From Chloroherpeton thalassium ATCC 35110 (GTDB taxonomy: Bacteria; Bacteroidota; Chlorobiia; Chlorobiales; Chloroherpetonaceae): a stretch of DNA of 64,000 bases. Made by a program: the position numbers and the translations under genes. Positions 31,559 through 56,404 of the stretch are shown one piece after another. Location of the stretch: the NCBI RefSeq assembly GCF_000020525.1, contig NC_011026.1:1160001-1224000 (forward strand), written 5' to 3'. The notes beneath the pieces were generated by a model. That model was not told the origin of the DNA. It saw nothing but the letters and a program-made list of their open reading frames with translations, and did no database searches. The stretch's first letter is position 1; every line of letters begins with the position of its first letter.

Positions 31559-31659
31559 GTGGTAATAATAACTTATTCGTGATTTTATGAATGATTTATG
31601 TAATATTTTTTGTATAATAGATATTAATTAACTAATATCTACGCTTATTCTTGTTCTTT

Positions 31660-31804
31660 ATTTTTTGCGACGATAATCATCATCAGGGAATTCGGTGAGA
31701 ATCCGAGACTGTACCCGCAACTGTGATAACCGTTAAGTCGAATTGCAAAAAGCCATTGCGAAAGTGAGAAGGCGCGATTCGAAGGTTTAAGTCAGGAGAC
31801 CGGC
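31660..31804 (+). ncRNA. Adenosylcobalamin riboswitch aptamer
   Basis: The conserved core is plain: GGGAATTCGGTGAGAATCCG (from 31686), then GTACCCGCAACTGTGA (31711-31726) and the 3' element AAGTCAGGAGACCGGC ending at 31804. This is the classic B12-box arrangement (GGTGxxAATCCG, CCCGCAACTGT, GCCAGGAGACC). Its 5' boundary is approximate. The next gene is a TonB receptor 246 bases downstream, so cobalamin should repress receptor synthesis. The last B12-box is AGTCAGGAGACC instead of AGCCAGGAGACC, a mild deviation. Confidence 0.93.
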
Positions 31805-31830
31805 AAAACTAAATTAATCTTAATGGCTTT

Positions 31831-41723: not shown

Positions 41724-41747
41724 TTGAATTTATACAATTCAAAAATG

Positions 41748-41996
41748 GTTATTCGCAGGCGTCTTGCGGAAACCATATCATCTATGTTATACATGAGAAG
41801 AGCAAATGAGATGGAAGAGGTTTTAAGGCGGTACAAAAATTTACTTATTCAGAAGAGATATAGCCAAAACACGCAAGATATATATTGCAGTTATTTTAAG
41901 AACTTTTGTATGTTCTTTGGAGAAGAAGAACTTGAAAAATCAACTACCAAACAAATACAAACGTTAGGGGGCAGCTTAAGAAACGACACAGCATAA
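41748..41996 (+). pseudogene. Tyrosine recombinase, truncated to the N-terminal (core-binding) domain
   Basis: The peptide around EVLRRYKNLLIQKRYSQNTQ and DIYCSYFKNFCMFF is the N-terminal SAM-like DNA-binding domain of XerC/D-type recombinases; the catalytic domain is missing. The frame runs into the integron cassette boundary at 41963/41964 (ACG|TTAGGGGG) after STTKQIQ and ends 33 bases later within cassette sequence. So the gene appears to have been cut where the cassette array begins. The first codons (MNLYNSK...) are uncertain. No continuation of the recombinase is visible after the array at 46502. Confidence 0.6.
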
Positions 41997-42011
41997 AATA
42001 ACATATAGATT

Positions 42012-43820
42012 ATGGCAGAAAAATATAATGCTTCAAATATTGCAATCGAACAGATTTTGAATTTTATAAAATCAGAGGAAATTGCAATACCTGAAATTCA
42101 AAGACCTTTTGTTTGGAAACCAAAACAAGTTCGTGATTTGATTGATTCTCTCTATACAGGTTATCCAACTGGCTATTTGATAATTTCCCAAAGCCCAAAC
42201 ATGAAATTGAAAGATGGGACTTTATCGGAAGGAAAGAAAATAATGATTGATGGTCAACAACGAGTTACAGCACTTATGACTTCAATAATGGGAATGGAAG
42301 TTATAAACTCAGATTTTGAAAAGAAAAGAATTAAAATTTCTTTCAATCCATTAGCCGTTGATGAAGATGAAGTATTCAAAGTTCAGGACAATGCAATATT
42401 AAAGGATAAAAAATGGATTACAGATATTGCCGATGTTTTTAAATCGGATTTTAAACGTGGTAGTTTTGTTGCAAAATATTGTGAGTTTAATCCAGACATG
42501 GATTCTGACAAACTTCATGATATTTTAGACGCATTAATCGGAATAAAAAATCGCCAAATTGGAGTAATCACATTGGATAAGGAACTGACTATTGATGAAG
42601 TAACAGAAATATTTATCCGAATCAATAGTCAAGGAGCAAAACTAAATCAATCAGACTTTGCTATGTCAAAAATTGCAGCTAATGTAAAATATGGTGGCAA
42701 TGAACTTCGCAAAGCAATAGATTATTTTTCTCATTTGGCAGTACAACCCGACTGGTATAATGAAATGTCAAAGGACAAGGAGTTCATGGAATCAAAATTT
42801 GCACCTAAGATTAAATGGCTAAAAGACGACAGAGAAGAAATCTTTGACCCAAATTACGGAGATATTCTGCGTGTTGCTTTTATGCACAAATTTAATCGTG
42901 GAAAAATGAAAGACTTGGTAAGTTTACTTGGCGGTCGTGACTTTGAAACACGAGATTATAAAGAAGAAATTGCAGAAGCTTCGTTTGGTAAACTAACAGA
43001 CGGTGTAATGGACTTTATGAATGAGTTTTCATTTACAAACTTCATTCTTGCAATAAAATCAGCAGGATTTATCACAAGCCGTTTGACAAACTCACAAATG
43101 ACCTTGGATTTTGCATACACACTTTATCTAATATTAAATTCAAGTAATCAAATCGACAAGACACAAATAAAACATTACGTTTCAAAATGGTACGTATTGT
43201 CAACCTTGACAAGTCGGTATATCACTTCGCCAGAATCGGTAATGGATTTGGATATTCGCAGGATTGCGGAAAAAGGATTTATTGAATATTTCAAAGAAAT
43301 TGAAGAAGCGAACTTATCTGACACTTTTTGGCAAGTTGGATTAGTCCAGGACTTAGAAACTTCAGCGATTAATAGTCCATTTTTTAATGTGTTTTTAGCA
43401 GCACAAGTGCATGGCAGTGATAATTCACTCTTAATGAATGGTACAAAAGTCCGAGATTTAATAACAATTATGGGCGATATACACCATATTTTCCCGAAAG
43501 GATATTTACAGAAAAATGGAATAACCGATAAATTAAAATATAATCAGATTGCTAATTACACTTACCTTGACACTCAAACAAATATTTCAATCGGAGATAA
43601 AGCTCCAAATGACTATTTCAAAACCGTCTTTGACCAGTGTGATTCTAAGGAAATGAAATTTGGTAATATTTCAGAACCATCGTTATTAAAGGAAAACTTG
43701 AGTATAAATTGCATTCCTGAAAACATCGTGACTATGGACGCAACACATTATGAGGACTTTCTTTTAGAACGGCGAAAATTAATGGCAAAAAAGATTAAAG
43801 ACTATTATTTTTCACTATGA
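42012..43820 (+). CDS. DUF262/HNH protein, GmrSD-like (cassette 1)
   Basis: The 602-residue protein starts with a DUF262 domain: IPEIQRPFVWKPKQVRDLID (residues 26-45), the hallmark IDGQQRVTAL (79-88) of the ParB-like nucleotide-binding fold, and FIRINSQGAKLNQSDF near residue 202. Near residue 488 it has GDIHHIFPKGYL and then NQIANYTYLDTQTN, an HNH-type nuclease motif of the DUF1524-like kind. Fusion of an NTP-sensing domain and an HNH nuclease is the plan of type IV restriction enzymes such as GmrSD, which cut glucosylated phage DNA. A defence function is a good inference. It begins 48 bases into the first cassette and ends just before its attC. Confidence 0.85.
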   Translation: MAEKYNASNIAIEQILNFIKSEEIAIPEIQRPFVWKPKQVRDLIDSLYTGYPTGYLIISQSPNMKLKDGTLSEGKKIMIDGQQRVTALMTSIMGMEVINSDFEKKRIKISFNPLAVDEDEVFKVQDNAILKDKKWITDIADVFKSDFKRGSFVAKYCEFNPDMDSDKLHDILDALIGIKNRQIGVITLDKELTIDEVTEIFIRINSQGAKLNQSDFAMSKIAANVKYGGNELRKAIDYFSHLAVQPDWYNEMSKDKEFMESKFAPKIKWLKDDREEIFDPNYGDILRVAFMHKFNRGKMKDLVSLLGGRDFETRDYKEEIAEASFGKLTDGVMDFMNEFSFTNFILAIKSAGFITSRLTNSQMTLDFAYTLYLILNSSNQIDKTQIKHYVSKWYVLSTLTSRYITSPESVMDLDIRRIAEKGFIEYFKEIEEANLSDTFWQVGLVQDLETSAINSPFFNVFLAAQVHGSDNSLLMNGTKVRDLITIMGDIHHIFPKGYLQKNGITDKLKYNQIANYTYLDTQTNISIGDKAPNDYFKTVFDQCDSKEMKFGNISEPSLLKENLSINCIPENIVTMDATHYEDFLLERRKLMAKKIKDYYFSL

Positions 43821-43833
43821 CAATAAAAGCCGA

Positions 43834-43966
43834 CCCCCTAACAATGTATAAAAATAATGGCCGGCTCAGTAGTAAATTTAAGGGTTTTAACCCGCTTCAA
43901 CTTTCTTGTAACTTGACAGGAAAGTACCACGCAGTCGGCTACTATTCTTATACTAAACGTTACCAA
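43834..43966 (+). repeat. attC site of cassette 1
   Basis: R'' CCCCCTAAC at 43834-43842; R' begins G|TTACC at 43959/43960. The inner part, with ACCCGCTTCAACTTTCTTGT and AACTTGACAGGAAAGTACCA, is almost identical to attC2 (44778-44911), and the outer GCCGGC / GTCGGC arms can fold together. Confidence 0.85.
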
Positions 43967-43978
43967 GCATTTTAAAAA

Positions 43979-44773
43979 ATGAAAATATTCATTGATACAT
44001 CAGTTTTATTAAATTCATTCTTGATATTTCGGAAATTTGAATCTTCTGAGATTGATGGTAATTATGTACCATTATACTTGAAAGATTCTGAAAATAAACT
44101 ATATATATTTGAAAAATCTAAATTTGAAGCCTATATGGCGTTTAAAGGGATAGGAGGGAAAAAACCAAGTGAAGGTAGAGGGGATTATGCAAATAGATTC
44201 TTAAAGAATGTTGATGATCCGATTAGCTTTTCGAAAATTATTTCAAAGTATCATGGTGATAATAAAGAGTTAGCTTATTATTGGAGTAATCAAATATTGG
44301 AAATTGATATAGAATCATTAATATCAAAACTTGACTTTGTTAAAGATGAGGATAGGGATAATGTATTAAAAAATATTGAAAAGTTAAGACAATTAAAAAG
44401 TAATCGTGACTCTTTTGAAAAACTATGTTCTCAATTCAATCGAATGTTGGATAATTGGAATATTGAAGTTTTGTCATATTTTGAAATTTTTAGTTTTAAA
44501 AATAATGAAAGTCTAATAAGTTTTGAATCTCCATTTCAATTAGACCAATTTGCTAAAGATACAGCAATACCATCAGAGGATTTTGAGATTATTTTTGCAG
44601 CAGAGCGGATTGGGGCAGATATTTTTTTAACAAATGATAATGAATTAATAAATTGCTCTATGAGTTTGGGAAATAATTATTTTTTAAGTCCGACAGCTTT
44701 TTGTAGAAGTGAAGATTATGAGACTTTAAAAGAAAAAATTAAATTAGGCAAAGATTATAGAGAATTAAAATAA
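43979..44773 (+). CDS. PIN-like domain protein (cassette 2)
   Basis: The 264-residue protein starts MKIFIDTSVLLNSF, with the first catalytic-type Asp (D6) of PIN nucleases. A Glu in KSKFEAYM (about residue 62) and the acidic run PSEDFEIIFAAERIGADIF plus LTNDNELI near residues 190-220 supply the remaining acidic residues. Between them lies a long helical insert of about 130 residues, so it is larger than VapC toxins and closer to bigger PIN ribonucleases. No antitoxin-like gene is present in the cassette. RNA cleavage in a defence or stress context is plausible. Confidence 0.7.
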   Translation: MKIFIDTSVLLNSFLIFRKFESSEIDGNYVPLYLKDSENKLYIFEKSKFEAYMAFKGIGGKKPSEGRGDYANRFLKNVDDPISFSKIISKYHGDNKELAYYWSNQILEIDIESLISKLDFVKDEDRDNVLKNIEKLRQLKSNRDSFEKLCSQFNRMLDNWNIEVLSYFEIFSFKNNESLISFESPFQLDQFAKDTAIPSEDFEIIFAAERIGADIFLTNDNELINCSMSLGNNYFLSPTAFCRSEDYETLKEKIKLGKDYRELK

Positions 44774-44777
44774 AAAC

Positions 44778-44911
44778 GCTTGGTAACACGCGGTATAAAA
44801 AATTGCCGTGTCTGTAGGTTATTCAAGGGTTTTAACCCGCTTCAACTTTCTTGTAACTTGACAGGAAAGTACCACGCAGTCGGCTACTATTCTTATACTA
44901 ATCGTTGTGTG
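44778..44911 (+). repeat. attC site of cassette 2
   Basis: R'' GCTTGGTAAC (44778-44787) is the exact complement of this cassette's first bases (GTTACCAAGC at 43959). The site ends at G|TTGTGTGC (44904/44905). Central part near-identical to attC1. Confidence 0.85.
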
Positions 44912-45033
44912 CAAGCTAGAAGCAACATAATCGTAATAAATAACATCTTTAAAGAGTAAAAAAACAGATTAAATAGTGTAGACTTTAATGATTTCGATTT
45001 ATAAATATCAAATTTCAAGATTATGAAAACATA

Positions 45034-45429
45034 ATGATTTTAATTGCGAGCATTTTAATTCTTACTTCTTGCTCCGACAAAGAAGACCCAATTGGAAAAT
45101 GGGATGATAATATAAAGCTATCAACAAAGAGCGTTGACTTTGATAAAAAAACAGATTCAGTTACAATAACAACAGAAGGAGATTGGTGGTGGATTGATGC
45201 AATTACCTTTGAAGATAGCACATATAGTTATTACGGCAGAGAAGACATAAACCTGGAATCAGACTCTTATTCTATAATTGAAGAACAATTTTTGGTTGAA
45301 AGGCGAGATAAAAACACTCTATTTGTGAAAATAAATGAGAATAATACGGGAGAAGAAAGGATTATGAATATCACTTTTGAAGCAGGTAATTATTTTGACT
45401 ACGTTAATATTAAACAAGCAGGTAATTAA
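45034..45429 (+). CDS. Small lipoprotein (cassette 3)
   Basis: The 131-residue product begins with a short signal and lipobox (ILTSC), followed by SDKEDPIGKW. The body (NIKLSTKSVDFDKKTDSVTI, GDWWWIDAITF, IMNITFEAGNYFDYVNIKQA) has the look of a BACON-like or other all-beta domain common in Bacteroidota lipoproteins. An ATGAAAACATAA just upstream is out of frame. The poly-Asp tag of the receptor-linked lipoproteins is absent, although SDKED is acidic. Function unknown. Confidence 0.65.
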   Translation: MILIASILILTSCSDKEDPIGKWDDNIKLSTKSVDFDKKTDSVTITTEGDWWWIDAITFEDSTYSYYGREDINLESDSYSIIEEQFLVERRDKNTLFVKINENNTGEERIMNITFEAGNYFDYVNIKQAGN

Positions 45430-45468
45430 TATGATTGAAGATTTGTAATGTGGAAGTAATCAAAGCCA

Positions 45469-45603
45469 GCATACAACAATGTATAAAAATAATAGCCGAG
45501 ATAGTAGAAAATTTAAGGCTTGAAGCCCGCTTCAACTTTCTTGTAACTTGACAGGAAAGTATCACGCAATCTGCCACTACTCATACAATTTACCGTTGTA
45601 TGC
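45469..45603 (+). repeat. attC site of cassette 3
   Basis: R'' GCATACAAC (45469-45477) and R' GTTGTATGC (45595-45603) are perfectly complementary to each other. Inner sequence CCCGCTTCAACTTTCTTGTA matches attC1 and attC2. Confidence 0.85.
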
Positions 45604-45624
45604 AAGCTTAAAAAACATACTGCA

Positions 45625-46368
45625 ATGAAGATACTTTTACCAATTTTATTTATATCGTTATCTGCATGTGGACAGAATAAGTCGACGATTTTATCTGATA
45701 AGCAACCGATTCGGATAGATTCTGTAGAAACTGTTTATATTAAAAAGTCATCGATTGATAATGATTCTATTAAATTGAATTATGGACAGACAAAAGCATT
45801 TATTGATAAATGGAATAATTCAGAATCAATAGGATTGTATAAATATTTACCTGATTATTGGATAATATTGATTGGGAAAGATGGTTCATTTAGAAAATTC
45901 AGAACAAACAAGGATAAAATAAATGAAAAAAATGATTGGGCATTTTCAATCGGTGACACATCATTTATTGAGTCGATTTGGAAATCAAATACATTATTTT
46001 CAATACCAGAACAATATGACCCGATTTCATTTATTAAAGCAGTATCAAGAGCAATAAAAGTTAATGAGGGATATTTTAGTGTTGGCATCACAATGGTTGA
46101 TAAGTTTCCTAATGATTGGGTAAAAAGAGAGCATATTGACACATTGATTTCTATGATTGATTCTAAAGATACTTGTGGTTGTTTTTTAAACCCTCTATCT
46201 TCGTATATCCCAAGTGGATGTGCTGAAAAAGGAGGATATGCAGCATTATTTATAAAATCATTTATGGATAATAAACCTGTATCATTTGGACTATATGCCT
46301 GTCCAAAAGTTGACAAAAAATTAAATGAGGAATTGATATCTTGGTGGATTAATTATAAAAATAAATAA
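45625..46368 (+). CDS. Lipoprotein of unknown function (cassette 4)
   Basis: The 247-residue product has a signal and lipobox (SLSACG), then a region I cannot assign to a family. It includes YGQTKAFIDKWNNSESIGLY, WIILIGKDGSFRKFRTNKDK, and a Cys pair in DTCGCFLNP with further Cys in PSGCAEKG. The sequence reads like a Bacteroidota lipoprotein from a mobile cassette. Acidic surface-export signal absent, so it is probably periplasmic. The gene begins 29 bases after the cassette start. Confidence 0.65.
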   Translation: MKILLPILFISLSACGQNKSTILSDKQPIRIDSVETVYIKKSSIDNDSIKLNYGQTKAFIDKWNNSESIGLYKYLPDYWIILIGKDGSFRKFRTNKDKINEKNDWAFSIGDTSFIESIWKSNTLFSIPEQYDPISFIKAVSRAIKVNEGYFSVGITMVDKFPNDWVKREHIDTLISMIDSKDTCGCFLNPLSSYIPSGCAEKGGYAALFIKSFMDNKPVSFGLYACPKVDKKLNEELISWWINYKNK

Positions 46369-46374
46369 AAGCCA

Positions 46375-46507
46375 GCACACAACAATGTGTATAAGTAATG
46401 GCGGGGATTGTAGTAATATCAAGGCTTGTAGCTCGCAACAACTTTATCACGATTTGATAATGAATAGCTTCGAAGCCCGCCACTGCTCATAGCCGCAACC
46501 GTTAACA
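46375..46507 (+). repeat. attC site of cassette 4 (divergent)
   Basis: R'' GCACACAAC (46375-46383) and R' G|TTAACA (46501/46502). The middle differs from the other three (TCAAGGCTTGTAGCTCGCAA, then a GAAGCCCGCC arm facing GGCGGGG). Its R'' complements the start of cassette 3 better than that of cassette 4. Confidence 0.75.
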
Positions 46508-46596
46508 GCAACAAAAAGCCCAAACACAGCTCACGTCATAACTTTCTTTCAATAAGAGAAAATAAGCAAATACCACACCGATAGTTTGAAAACAAA

Positions 46597-49232: not shown

Positions 49233-49385
49233 AAAAAATCAGGTCAAGAGATATTTTTCTTTGGCTTTGCCAAATTCAAAAAAGCCGTAACCGGCAGCCA
49301 AGCCGTTTTGAATTTTAACAAATGCTTTTTAACTTTAGCCGTTCATTGTTTGTTCTCTCAACCCTAATTTGGAAAAACATGAATG
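49233..49385 (+). repeat. Duplicated integrase 5' region, copy A
   Basis: About 150 bp match 50133-50271, including GTTTGTTCTCTCAACCCTAA, GGAAAAACATGAATG and AAGCCGTTTTGAATTTTAA. In copy B the ATGAATG is the start of the integrase gene; here it begins a 20-codon remnant (MNVISKTH...). Copy A has a 17-base insertion relative to B. Together they flank the DUF4258/YgiT-type gene pair. Confidence 0.8.
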
Positions 49386-50132: not shown

Positions 50133-50271
50133 CAAAAAAATCAAGTCAAGAGATATTCTTCTTTGGCTTTGCGTAACCGGCAGCCAAGCTGTTTTGAATT
50201 TTAATGAACGCGTCTTAACTTTAGCTGTTCATTGTTTGTTCTCTCAACCCTAATTCGGAAAAACATGAATG
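50133..50271 (+). repeat. Duplicated integrase 5' region, copy B (integrase promoter and start)
   Basis: Matches copy A (49233-49385) over its whole length and includes the ATG of the integrase. Its first 40 bases also match the 3' end of the ferredoxin gene at 54424-54465 (minus-strand gene), with few mismatches. Confidence 0.8.
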
Positions 50272-51279
50272 CTTCTCCCATATTATCTAAAAATCCAATA
50301 ACCGGTTTTCAGCCTTTCAAACCGGCGCCAAAACTTTTGGATTTATTACGGGAAGCCTTACATGTTCGTCCTTACAGCAAACGAACTCAGAAAGCTTATT
50401 GCTATTGGGTAAAGCAGTTTGTTTATTTTTATCAATTACGGCATCCGAAAGATATGTCGGAACCGGAGATTAATGCTTTCCTGACACATCTGGCGGTTGA
50501 GAAAAAAGTTAGCGCCTCGCCTCAAAACCAAGCGTTAAGCGCGTTGTTATTTCTTTATCGTCATGTGATAGGTAAAGAACTTGGCGATCTTGGACATGTT
50601 ATACGCGCTCGAAAACCCATACGTTTGCCTGTCGTTTTAACCCGAGAGGAAGTCAAGTCGGTTCTTACCGGTCTCAAAGCTGAGAAGTGGTTGATGGCTT
50701 CGCTGATGTATGGCTCAGGATTGCGGCTCATGGAATGTTTACAATTGCGGATTCATGATATTGATTTTTCCCGTAATGAAATTCCGATTCGTGACGGCAA
50801 GGGCGCAAAAGACCGGCTCACGATGTTGCCTGAATCTTTGAAAAAACCTCTTGCCGATCATCTGAAACGGGTTAAACGCATTCACGATAAAGACCTTGCT
50901 GATGGTTGGGGACGTGTGATATTACCCAATGCCCTGGATCGCAAATATCCGAATGCACCGGCCGAATGGCGGTGGCAGTGGGTTTTCCCTCAAGAGAACC
51001 GCTGGAAGAATACGAACACGGGAGAAGAGGGACGGCATCACGTCCATGAATCCATTATCCAAAAAGCCGTAACCCGTGCGGTTCGAAAGGCAGGCTTGAC
51101 CAAGCGAGCTACGTGCCACACTTTTAGGCATTCTTTTGCTACTCATCTTCTTGAATCAGGTTATGATATTAGAACAATACAGGAATTATTAGGACATAAA
51201 AATGTGGAGACTTACAATGATTTATACTCATGTAATCAATCAAGGTGGGAAAGGTGTAAGAAGCCCTGCAGATTTTTAG
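50265..51279 (+). pseudogene. intI: Integron integrase IntI, frameshifted before the catalytic tyrosine
   Basis: From ATG 50265 the frame encodes an integron-type tyrosine recombinase: N-terminal core-binding domain ([20 protein letters not shown]), catalytic Arg in [10 protein letters not shown], the IntI-specific extra patch [20 protein letters not shown], and [12 protein letters not shown] plus LGHKNVET. After ET the reading frame is wrong: one extra T at 51212/51213 turns the expected [20 protein letters not shown] into YNDLYSCNQ..., which stops at 51330-51332. In the +1 frame the normal end is intact up to TAG 51277-51279. The shift lies just upstream of the nucleophilic Tyr, so the enzyme should be dead unless frameshifting or a sequencing error is involved. 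It points toward the cassettes (inverted-integrase layout). Confidence 0.9.
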
Positions 51280-51445
51280 TATATGTTGCCAATATGAGCA
51301 ACATATACAAGTCTATAAACAAGGAGAAATGATGATTAAATTCAATAATAGTAAACAAATAATATTTAACAATCAACATATATTAGGTAGTCATGAAGAG
51401 CAACCTTTGCTTTTTTCATTAGTACATCTAATCTTATGTTAGCGT
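51280..51445 (+). other. Putative attI recombination region
   Basis: The GTPase cassette begins at G|TTAGCG (51438/51439), the exact complement of the R'' core CGCTAAC at 53367. The sequence between the integrase and this point should therefore contain attI. I see no clear second core site or direct repeats by eye. Confidence 0.55.
51332..51442 (+). CDS. Possible 36-residue peptide in the attI region
   Basis: ATG 51332 (or 51329) follows AAGGAG at 51321-51326 and reads MIKFNNSKQIIFNNQHILGS, ending in a hydrophobic tail and TAG at 51440-51442, three bases inside the first cassette. The ribosome-binding site is the main support. It might help translation into the cassette, as attI-located small frames do in class 1 integrons. 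No family recognised. Confidence 0.3.
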   Translation: MIKFNNSKQIIFNNQHILGSHEEQPLLFSLVHLILC

Positions 51446-51489
51446 CTGTAACGTGCATCAAAACACACAAAATATTATCGGAGAAAGGT

Positions 51490-52587
51490 ATGAAAGCAAA
51501 TAAAAGTTCTTACACATCATTGTTTAGTACGCTTGAAAAACATGGTTTGATAATTGCTCCTGAATACAAAACAAAAATTGAGGAACGCCTCAACCAAGTA
51601 AGAAATTACGAACCTAAAGTCGGAGTTTTTGGAAAAACTGGCGTAGGAAAGTCTAGTTTATGTAATGCATTATTTGGACAAGATATCTGTGAGATTAGTG
51701 ACATCAAAGCATGTACTAGGAAACCACAAGAAATTTTATTGTCGATTGGTGGTAGAGGATTAAAGTTGCTTGATGTTCCTGGCGTGGGTGAAAGTAGTGA
51801 GCGCGATAAAGAATATGAAGAACTTTATGAAAAGTTACTTCCAGAACTTGATCTTATTTTTTGGGTTTTTAAAGCAGATGACCGAGCCGGGTCTTCTGAT
51901 GAGAGATTTTATAAAAGATTAATTCGTCCTTATGTTGATGCCGGCAAACCATTTTTGGCGGTTATCAATCAAGTGGATAAAATCGAACCATTTAGAGAGT
52001 GGAATGAAGAGGAGAGAAGACCTGGTGCGAAACAATCCGCAAATATAGATGAAAAAAGGAAACATATTGCAGGCTTTTTTGATCTTCCGCTGAATAAAGT
52101 TCTGCCTATCTCAGCAAATGAAAAATATAATTTAGATAAGTTGGTCGACTCTATCATCCATGCATTACCAAAGGAACAAAAATTCATCATGCTGGAAAAG
52201 ATACATAAGGCAGAAGAAGAAAATTATGTAAAACTCAAGGCTGAAGCGGAAAAAGCACAGGCTGAGGCAGAAAAAGCAAAAGACGAAGCAAAAAGAGCTA
52301 AAATAAAAGCTGAGGAGGAGCAAGCCAGATTTAGATACGAAAAAATGAAAGCCGAAGCAGAAAAAGTACGAGCTGAAGCAGAAAGAGCTAAGATAGAAAC
52401 TATAATATCTCAATTCGCAAGAAGAGAGGCAGAAGCAAGTTGGTTAGAAATTGCTGCAGAAGTTGTTTCTGAAACGCTAGGTGCCGCCTTGGAAACAGGA
52501 AAAGCCGCCTTGGAAGCAGGAAAATCCGCCTTGGAAGCAGGATTTAATGCAGTTAAAAATAATAAATGGATGCCTTGGAATTGGTAA
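51490..52587 (+). CDS. Era/TrmE-like GTPase with Ala/Glu/Lys coiled coil
   Basis: ATG 51490 follows GGAGAAAGG. The 365-residue protein has the GTPase motifs G1 GKTGVGKS (residues 48-55), a Thr in the switch I area (IKACTRKP), G3 DVPG (95-98), G4 NQVDK (160-164) and G5 SAN (about 201). From residue 235 on there is a long charged coiled coil made of AEAEKAKDEAKRAKIKAEEE-type repeats. It ends in amphipathic, Ala-rich repeats (LGAALETGKAALEAGKSALE) that could touch a membrane. Such GTPase plus coiled-coil proteins resemble conflict or dynamin-like factors. The second GTPase gene starts 6 bases downstream. Confidence 0.85.
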   Translation: MKANKSSYTSLFSTLEKHGLIIAPEYKTKIEERLNQVRNYEPKVGVFGKTGVGKSSLCNALFGQDICEISDIKACTRKPQEILLSIGGRGLKLLDVPGVGESSERDKEYEELYEKLLPELDLIFWVFKADDRAGSSDERFYKRLIRPYVDAGKPFLAVINQVDKIEPFREWNEEERRPGAKQSANIDEKRKHIAGFFDLPLNKVLPISANEKYNLDKLVDSIIHALPKEQKFIMLEKIHKAEEENYVKLKAEAEKAQAEAEKAKDEAKRAKIKAEEEQARFRYEKMKAEAEKVRAEAERAKIETIISQFARREAEASWLEIAAEVVSETLGAALETGKAALEAGKSALEAGFNAVKNNKWMPWNW

Positions 52588-52593
52588 ATAATT

Positions 52594-53319
52594 ATGGAAA
52601 TAATTAAATACTACCATCATCGCGGAAATGTTGGAGAGCTTTCTACGCGCTATCATGCATTTTCGAAACTTAAAAATGCAAGAATACGGAAGATTGATCA
52701 CTTGAAATGGAAAGATACACACAATGGCTATATATCATATCATGCTCAAGTAGCTTTCTTTGGAAAAACAGGTTATGGAAAATCAACAACTGTAAACTCA
52801 TTTTTTGGCAATTCAATTTTAAAAACAAGCGATATTGCAGCGTGTACAAGAGAATGTCAAAGTTTGGATTTTGAGCTATCGCCAAACTGCTACTTATCCT
52901 TGGCTGATTTTCCTGGTATTGGAGAAAGTGAGTACAGAGATCATGAGTATCTCGAAATGTATAGTAACTTTCTGTCAACCTCTACTGTAATTGTATATGT
53001 AATACGAGCTGACACGAGAGACTATTCTATCGATGAATCAGCTTATAAAAAGGTATTTTCAACTCACGCGCATAGTAAAAAAGCTATTTTGGCATTAAAT
53101 TATTGTGATAAAGTAGAGCCGATAAGTAGGCAATATTTAGCGCATCCAAACTCAGAACAATTAAAAAACATCGACAAAAAAATTGATGTGGTAAATAAAA
53201 TATTTAGCCCAATAAATGCAATCATACCATATAGCGCAGAGACTAGTTGGAATATGAATACTCTTGCTAAAGCGATTGTTGATATTGTATCTGATAGTGA
53301 GCATATTGAAATAGTTTAA
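52594..53319 (+). CDS. Second Era-like GTPase of the pair
   Basis: The 241-residue protein lacks a coiled coil and is a single G domain with an N-terminal helical extension of about 50 residues. Motifs: G1 GKTGYGKS (57-64), switch I IAACTRECQ, G3 DFPGIGES (near residue 104), G4 NYCDK (N-x-x-D), and YSAET for G5. The ACTR-x-x-Q and DxPGxGES signatures are shared with the upstream GTPase, so the two are paralogues and could form a heterodimer. Only six bases separate the genes. A membrane- or phage-responsive system of two GTPases is my inference; no relative is known to me by name. Confidence 0.85.
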   Translation: MEIIKYYHHRGNVGELSTRYHAFSKLKNARIRKIDHLKWKDTHNGYISYHAQVAFFGKTGYGKSTTVNSFFGNSILKTSDIAACTRECQSLDFELSPNCYLSLADFPGIGESEYRDHEYLEMYSNFLSTSTVIVYVIRADTRDYSIDESAYKKVFSTHAHSKKAILALNYCDKVEPISRQYLAHPNSEQLKNIDKKIDVVNKIFSPINAIIPYSAETSWNMNTLAKAIVDIVSDSEHIEIV

Positions 53320-53366
53320 TCGTAAAAACTGAACGCTGTATAAGAATGCCATTCATCAATTATTAT

Positions 53367-53475
53367 CGCTAACATGCGCATCAACTCGGACGCCAAAAGC
53401 GGCGCCGAATTCGGTATTATTTTTAAGTTTAGTAGCACTGCCGCTTTTGTCGCCGGTTATGCTTGACGTTATGTC
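53367..53475 (+). repeat. attC site of the GTPase cassette
   Basis: R'' CGCTAAC (53367-53373), inner arms AAAAGCGGC (53395-53403) and GCCGCTTTT (53440-53448) that pair perfectly, and R' G|TTATGTC at 53468/53469. It is more G/C-rich and of a different type from the left-array attCs. Confidence 0.8.
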
Positions 53476-53570
53476 CCTAAAATCGAAGTCGTCAAATTTT
53501 TACTCGATTCTTTGTTAATAAAATCTTACCTTAGAGTAAGAAATAAAATCAATGTAAGACAGTGGGGCGA

Positions 53571-53825
53571 ATGACTATGGCTTTAGCAACGATTACATCA
53601 AAAGGACAAGTAACAATCCCTAAAAAAATAAGAGATTCTCTTAAGTTGCGCACAGGGGACAAAATAGAAATTGTTATTACAGATAAAATGGAAGCCGTCA
53701 TTAGGCCAATTTCAAAAACAGTGGATGAACTTTTTTGTAAATTACATAAACCTGAACAAAAAGCCTTTTCTGTAGAAGAAATAAACAATGCCATCCAGAA
53801 CCGGATGAAGAGTAAATATAAATGA
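53571..53825 (+). CDS. vapB: AbrB/MazE-type antitoxin (VapB-like)
   Basis: The 84-residue protein from ATG 53571 (53577 is an alternative) has a SpoVT/AbrB swapped-hairpin DNA-binding domain: ATITSKGQVTIPKKIRDSLK, then LRTGDKIEIVITDKMEAVIR. The C-terminal part (DELFCKLHKPEQKAFSVEEI) should bind the toxin. The stop overlaps the VapC start by ATGA. The first 100 bases of the cassette hold the promoter. As in other AbrB-VapC pairs it should repress its own operon. Confidence 0.88.
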   Translation: MTMALATITSKGQVTIPKKIRDSLKLRTGDKIEIVITDKMEAVIRPISKTVDELFCKLHKPEQKAFSVEEINNAIQNRMKSKYK

Positions 53826-54220
53826 AAGGGATTGATACAAACATTCTTGTTCGATTTCTTGTTGGCGATGACTCTAATCAAGCCCAAGTTGTTTATAACC
53901 TCTTCAAAGAAACCGAATTAAATAAAACCGAATTATTTGTTTCATTGCTGGTCGTTTTAGAGCTTCTATGGGTTTTAGAATCTGTGTATCAAATCGAAAG
54001 AAACAACATAATAGATTCACTGGCAGATTTAATCCTTATGCCAATTTTAAAATTTGAAAACATAGAAGCTATTCAGAAATTTATCATTGCAGCCAAAAAC
54101 AGCAAATATGATTTATCTGATTTGCTGATAGTTCATGCTTCTAATTCTCATGGTTGTGAATCGGTTTTTACTTTTGACAAAAAGGCATCCAAGTACAGCC
54201 TGTTTGAACTGATAAAATGA
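53822..54220 (+). CDS. vapC: PIN-domain toxin (VapC-like)
   Basis: The 132-residue protein has the four acidic sites expected of VapC: D5 in MKGIDTNILVRFL, E47 in VLELLWVL, Asp in YDLSDLLIVHAS and Asp in VFTFDKKA. It should be an endoribonuclease held in check by the upstream AbrB-type protein. The stop codon overlaps the R'' core of its attC (GACATAAC at 54219-54226), which matches this cassette's start TTATGTC at 53469; VapBC is therefore a true integron cassette. Confidence 0.9.
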   Translation: MKGIDTNILVRFLVGDDSNQAQVVYNLFKETELNKTELFVSLLVVLELLWVLESVYQIERNNIIDSLADLILMPILKFENIEAIQKFIIAAKNSKYDLSDLLIVHASNSHGCESVFTFDKKASKYSLFELIK

Positions 54221-54345
54221 CATAACAAAACGCTGCAGGCCGTCCCGGAGAGCTAGCGTCTTTTTGAAAGACCTTAGTTTTCGAAAAGAATTTAATTTGG
54301 GGGAAGTCCTCGGTTCTCGCTCCGCGCTGCTTAGCTCCCCGTAAA
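54219..54345 (+). repeat. attC of the VapBC cassette, right end degenerate
   Basis: R'' GACATAAC (54219-54226) complements the cassette start GTTATGTC exactly. A following AACGCTGCAGG looks like L''. On the right CGCGCTGCTTAGC (near 54333) resembles L' but no GTT core follows; CCCCG stands there. The array seems to end in a broken site next to the nif terminator. Confidence 0.5.
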
Positions 54346-56108: not shown

Positions 56109-56170
56109 GATTTCGTAGCTCCTTCACATTGTTGGCGTGGTCGCTTTTGTTTTGAGCATTTTTTAAAATT

Positions 56171-56404
56171 CAAAGAAGCCATGTTTCGTCTCCGCTCAAC
56201 ATGACACGGGGAAACTCTCATCGGCTTGAAAATTCTTGTCGGCCTGAAAATCTTTGTCTGCCTGAGCGGAGACGAAGGCCTGTTTTTCAAAGAAGTCACG
56301 TTTCGTCTCCGCTCAACCCGGGCATGGGAAATTCCCATCAGCCTGAAAATCTTTGTCGGCCTGAAAATTCTTGTCTGCCTGAGCAGAGACGAAGGCCTGT
56401 TTTG
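56171..56404. repeat. Tandem 117-bp repeat with long inverted arms between nifN and nifB
   Basis: Unit 1 (56171-56287) and unit 2 (56288-56404) are about 85 percent alike. Each carries TTTCGTCTCCGCTCA near the left and TGAGCGGAGACGAAG near the right (arms in unit 1 at 56187-56198 and 56263-56274), so each unit could form a large hairpin. Inside, CCTGAAAATCTTTGTC-type segments are themselves repeated. A single arm, TTCGTCTCCGCTCAA, also lies at 54806-54820 between nifB and the ferredoxin gene. Confidence 0.85.

Follow-up and report, generated by a model that had tools for sequence, protein, structure and literature searches.

Among described GTPases, the closest to those reported here are YfjP, YkfA and YeeP, Era-like proteins of CP4-type islands that are long known as mobile-island genes of E. 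coli K-12 and for which we found no function in the open literature searched. Neighbouring GTPase genes are known from another setting: Kaur et al. 2020 (PMC7159879) described the DO-GTPases, TRAFAC paralogues from conflict neighbourhoods, in which double GTPases accompanied by GAP1 share one mobile neighbourhood and dimerisation has been suggested. Further points of comparison are the bacterial dynamin-like LeoA/LeoBC proteins (Eleos), and Toc34/Toc33 and the GIMAP paraseptins, whose membrane-paired G domains serve us as a working analogy. Here we analysed a window of 64,000 nucleotides from Chloroherpeton thalassium ATCC 35110, whose genome is a single contig of 3,293,456 bases, and describe an integron cassette with two adjacent GTPase genes, termed A and B. 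A resembles YfjP, YkfA and YeeP in its G domain (39-41% identity), in the motifs ACTR and DxPGxGE, in a short amphipathic tail with an aromatic end and in its mobile context; unlike these solitary proteins, it is paired with a second GTPase lineage, B, and its tail is lengthened by 21-bp repeats. The A-B pair is apparently a two-gene variant, not previously described, of a GTPase family that is known but has not been characterised. The open literature yielded neither a YfjP-type pair nor a defence role for YfjP, which is weak evidence of novelty since most subscription journals lay outside the scope of the search.

The cassette occupies positions 51439-53468 of the window (2030 bp; like all genes and sites described at this locus, on the forward strand) and has the G|TT points 51438 and 53468 as its boundaries. 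The reverse complement of its R'' box, CGCTAAC (53367-53373), is identical to the left end of this cassette, GTTAGCG (51438-51444), and in the cassette downstream the R'' box ACATAAC (54220-54226) complements that cassette's own first bases, GTTATGT (53468-53474); given the GTT, the chance odds of each four-base match are 1/256. Because R'' complements the cassette's own first bases in both cases, the ends are demonstrated by an internal check, and the limits proposed in the initial annotation proved exact. We conclude that 51439-53468 is a genuine integron cassette and that the GTPase pair reached the Chloroherpeton genome inside it. The attC site (53367-53474), delimited by its R'' and R' boxes, folds as a long imperfect hairpin with about -20 to -22 kcal/mol for both strands (DNA parameters), and the G+C content of the cassette is 36.5%, as against 48% in the nif region. 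Searches of plasmids and phages for attC relatives by DNA similarity returned none that was useful, and a genome-wide scan with the consensus R''/R' boxes, which gave 58 matches versus 150 in the reversed control, was uninformative.

Upstream of the cassette lies an integron integrase gene, intI (50265-51280, or 50265-51332 in its wider limits; TIGR02249, 429 bits), the frame of which is lost just 5' of the catalytic tyrosine, with the next part of the integrase read in the following frame. In this assembly the frameshift represents either decay or a sequencing error; intI is present, but its reading frame is not a functional one, a finding that bears on the integron platform and not on the cassette itself. 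Two cassettes follow downstream, both in the direction of intI, an orientation in which class 1 integrons differ. Since the attI is a putative one and intI is frameshifted, it cannot be concluded, as had been expected earlier, that the GTPase cassette is the newest. The next cassette (53469-54226) encodes an AbrB-type antitoxin and a PIN toxin (VapBC), as judged from profile matches, the R'' box and the fold. Its R'' box is kept, but a 3' half of attC cannot be seen at 54220-54260, and the array seems to be cut off after this R'', adjoining the nif cluster to the right of the cassettes. On the other side of the locus, two 100-bp leader copies (49286-49385 and 50172-50271, 92% identical, the second just before intI) flank a toxin-antitoxin-like gene pair of DUF4258 and YgiT-type zinc-finger genes. 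Further left, a second cassette-like array (41724-46520) has four 140-bp copies of a different and longer repeat type, and the repeats at 43.8-46.5 kb are unlike the attC of the GTPase cassette. This array contains a GmrSD/DUF262 gene (42012-43820); as had been noted initially, other cassettes of the window carry conflict genes (GmrSD/DUF262 and VapBC). At the left of the array, an ORF shows resemblance to the N-terminal part of a tyrosine integrase.

Gene A (51490-52587, 365 aa) starts with an ATG at 51490, preceded by GGAGAAAGG, and ends with a stop codon at 52585-52587. Its product matches Pfam MMR_HSR1 with 64.9 bits and keeps all G motifs (GKTGVGKS, ACTR, DVPGVGES, NQVD and SAN). Identities are 64% to an orthologue in a second genome (G1010, see below), about 50% to plasmid GTPases, 41% to YfjP and 39% to YkfA; with YfjP/YkfA-type proteins as closest relatives and the C-T-R and D-P-G-G-E columns invariant, A is assigned by its sequence to the YfjP/YkfA branch of the Era-like GTPases. 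The G domain is followed in the predicted structure by a single continuous helix (residues 228-357). Within it, residues of about 241-312 (approximately 52210-52425, encoded by 21-bp tandem repeats) follow a 7-residue periodicity and comprise 17 Ala, 17 Glu, 19 Lys/Arg and a single Leu in 72 residues. The long helix noted initially is thus present, but with almost no hydrophobic core this E/K/R/A-rich repeat is closer to a charged single helix than to the coiled coil that had been read into it. Three further 21-bp repeats (52483-52545, repeat family D16) encode the Ala-rich repeats of the tail; these too had been noted, as amphipathic, but the tail of A is only weakly so, with a hydrophobic moment of 0.38 compared with 0.58 in its orthologue. 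Both 21-bp arrays are absent from the G1010 orthologue, in which the same WNW end is kept, and they are therefore linker and tail expansions rather than a system-defining domain. The C-terminal end itself is aromatic throughout (MPWNW in A, PWNW in the orthologue, WDFFF in YfjP), and in nearly all members of the family the tail is short, amphipathic and rich in W/F at its end. A Burkholderia-type clade has in its place a TM-like segment (Kyte-Doolittle 2.1-2.4), hydrophobic enough to span a membrane. Since the family as a whole has either a tail that is amphipathic and ends in aromatic residues or a TM-like segment, membrane binding is a reasonable inference for the A family, and a weaker one for the A protein of the window with its low tail moment.

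Gene B (52594-53319, 241 aa) begins 6 bp after A, and the two products share 37% identity over 190 aa (E 4e-40), in agreement with the initial description of paralogous GTPases six bases apart. B matches MMR_HSR1 with 47.3 bits and likewise keeps all G motifs (GKTGYGKS, ACTR, DFPGIGES, NYCD and SAE), so that the shared ACTR and DxPGxGES-type motifs were borne out, and with these motifs intact both proteins should bind GTP. B had been described as a bare G domain. It does lack a C-terminal tail, and nothing in its model corresponds to the long helix of A, but it carries a conserved N-terminal extension of about 45 aa, which is a low-confidence region of the predicted structure and contains the motif YYxHRGNxxELSxRY, kept in the sole other full-length orthologue. 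Its relatives stand at 65% (locus L007) and 53% (locus L034) identity, and all others, the YfjP-type family among them, at about 25-37% over the G domain; tail-less and on a long separate branch, B forms a separate, rare lineage with three members found.

The predicted structures show one G domain in each protein, with Era as the top match for both; Toc34 and Toc33 rank high for B, at an identity of about 20% and with Era equally close. A dynamin- or IRG-like nature, as had been considered, did not survive this comparison. Neither model has a stalk or bundle or GED helices after the G domain, and the best stretch matching Pfam Dynamin_N covers the P-loop part only (residues 43-83); the IIGP scores of 17.2 and 15.6 bits are below the cut-off of 24, and the IRG helical domain is absent. 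PADLOC reported no defence family beyond a weak G-domain similarity to LeoA/LeoBC (LeoBC, 52 bits to A), whereas the dynamin stalk and paddle are missing from A and B and the LeoA structure reaches a TM-score of 0.29 (by target length). We also rejected assignment to the DO-GTPases. The Walker B glutamate is absent from A (KLLDVPG) and B (LSLADFPG), as read from sequence, and the window pair has no zinc ribbon, GAP1 or variable effector genes; the cassette consists of A and B only, and beside the second pair, which is flanked by CRISPR/cas genes and ppa, there are likewise no GAP1 or effector genes among those recognised.

The A family is otherwise found in mobile contexts, namely small plasmids, prophage-like contigs and islands, and not in housekeeping positions, with defence not singled out among them. 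A tblastn search of plasmids with A yielded 67 records (best identity 52%), many of them plasmids of 5-6 kb, with toxin-antitoxin genes, mobilisation genes and an EcsC gene annotated in the neighbourhood. On one 5.9-kb E. coli plasmid (L010:387-2778), an EcsC-family gene and a gene for a small cysteine-rich protein precede the YfjP-type GTPase. Relatives of A also occur on 27 IMG/VR contigs, and none was found in phage records. One A-family subtype is present in 206 of 5,426 E. coli genomes. Three E. coli loci were inspected; all are integrase-carrying islands, and two lie at tRNA-Sec. Their constant part runs WYL, GTPase, hypothetical protein, HTH regulator, Gp2, DUF932, RadC and YeeU/CbtA, while the defence genes beside this backbone vary from locus to locus. 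In these islands (loci L074, L075 and L076), the WYL regulator, the YfjP-type GTPase and the downstream hypothetical protein are possibly a three-gene module; in a plasmid locus (L012) the counterpart of the hypothetical protein begins with a signal-peptide-like sequence. B is missing from some 40 A-family loci, which indicates that A can function alone.

The search for the pair in other genomes, as the initial annotation had proposed, was successful: among 399 Pseudomonadota genomes drawn, one (G1010) contains a second A-B operon, in which A (64% identity) lies 21 bp upstream of B (53%) on the same strand and in the same order. It sits between an inorganic-pyrophosphatase-like gene (ppa, from ORF reading) and a CRISPR array, past which follow a Cas1 gene, a weak Cas1-like gene, two Cas2 genes, a Card1-like CARF nuclease gene and a CARF-HEPN gene. 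A third B, at 65% identity, was found in a Methylococcaceae draft genome, where it is truncated by the contig edge and no A was detected elsewhere in the draft. B occurs in one of 301 genomes of its first relative's order and in none of 197 other genomes of its own phylum; wider draws of Pseudomonadota, the second of which mostly repeats the first, gave no further B, and neither did phage records (queried with the second B) or viral contigs. Only two complete A-B pairs are thus known, G1010 being the one other B locus with its upstream region present. Could B simply be a local tandem copy of A that has no partner role? Adjacency and 37% identity would fit such an origin, but orthologues of B occur in two further genomes, in one of them again paired with A, and all its G motifs and its lineage-specific N-terminus are conserved. 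In a tree of 29 sequences, the three B proteins cluster with 100/99 and the two A proteins with 87/98 support, and A and B as sisters are rejected (p-AU 2e-5). Because the B clade is touched by long outgroup branches, its exact placement is unsure, yet the identities by themselves suffice to match A with A and B with B. The second pair and the tree thus contradict plain tandem duplication, which we regard as highly improbable. Rejection of the sisterhood, along with a second pair of matching A and B, argues that the genes travelled as a pair. On these comparisons A and B are old, distinct lineages and not a recent duplication, and the pair is older than the split of its two copies and has moved between phyla as a unit; the same two old lineages standing adjacent in an unrelated genome suggests that A and B probably work together.

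What such a pair might do is less evident, and we consider the chances evenly balanced that A-B is a mobile two-gene operon forming one unit with an accessory conflict role, with the tail of A at the inner membrane and B as a dedicated partner. The simplest account of two GTPases adjacent across phyla, one tailed and one tail-less, is that they are subunits of one switch. The tail of A would probably bind the inner membrane and supply the membrane address, and B, as the tail-less partner GTPase, would regulate or complete the switch; the G domains may pair GTP-dependently, in the manner of Toc33/Toc159 or other GTPase pairs, and heterodimerisation, which had been proposed from the shared motifs, is plausible. 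The benefit to the carrier would be accessory, probably in conflict between cell and mobile elements. A more specific reading, in which A-B is an anti-phage abortive-infection pair that detects infection and, by GTP-driven assembly, takes effect at the inner membrane, is in our estimation unlikely, although context suggests a defence role: the second pair has its CRISPR/CARF neighbourhood, type I RM, TIR, ABC-three-component and retron genes accompany solitary A-family GTPases in islands, and GmrSD and VapBC cassettes share the window. The similarity to LeoA/LeoBC is weak, however, the literature search returned no such role for YfjP, and in the E. coli islands the defence genes vary while the GTPase is a constant part of the backbone; defence genes near one A-B pair may be coincidental. 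It is just as tentative that YfjP-type GTPases serve the carrier plasmid or island itself, in maintenance, exclusion, partition or replication control, A-B being a two-subunit version carried in a cassette. In favour of such upkeep are GTPases on plasmids of about 5 kb that carry little besides rep/mob genes, and the constancy of the GTPase in the CP4-57-like backbone with AlpA, Gp2, DUF932, RadC and CbtA; against it, neither the integron cassette of the window pair nor the surroundings of the second pair, with ppa on one side and a CRISPR array on the other, contain genes for replication or transfer. The pair could serve in defence, in the upkeep of a plasmid or island, or in some other accessory role, and the present evidence favours none of these over the others. 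With regard to the initial annotation, its observation is confirmed and its interpretation partly supported.

The mobile operon with a membrane-directed A and a dedicated B would provide, in the dedicated-looking partner gene, a handle on the YfjP family, as a 2-kb, two-protein system that is directly expressible. We also entertain, as a doubtful extension, that A-B is a so far undescribed heteromeric two-component GTPase immune system in which B senses or gates and A assembles on the inner membrane via its tail, the pair moving between distant phyla as a cassette and in CRISPR-adjacent islands. If this were true, the solitary YfjP family would be a reservoir of uncharacterised immune GTPases.

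Elsewhere in the window, a cobalamin riboswitch (31634-31822; Rfam RF00174, 80.7 bits) lies 5' of TonB-receptor-like genes, and two tandem 117-bp repeats that are 85% identical (56169-56402) are located between nif genes.
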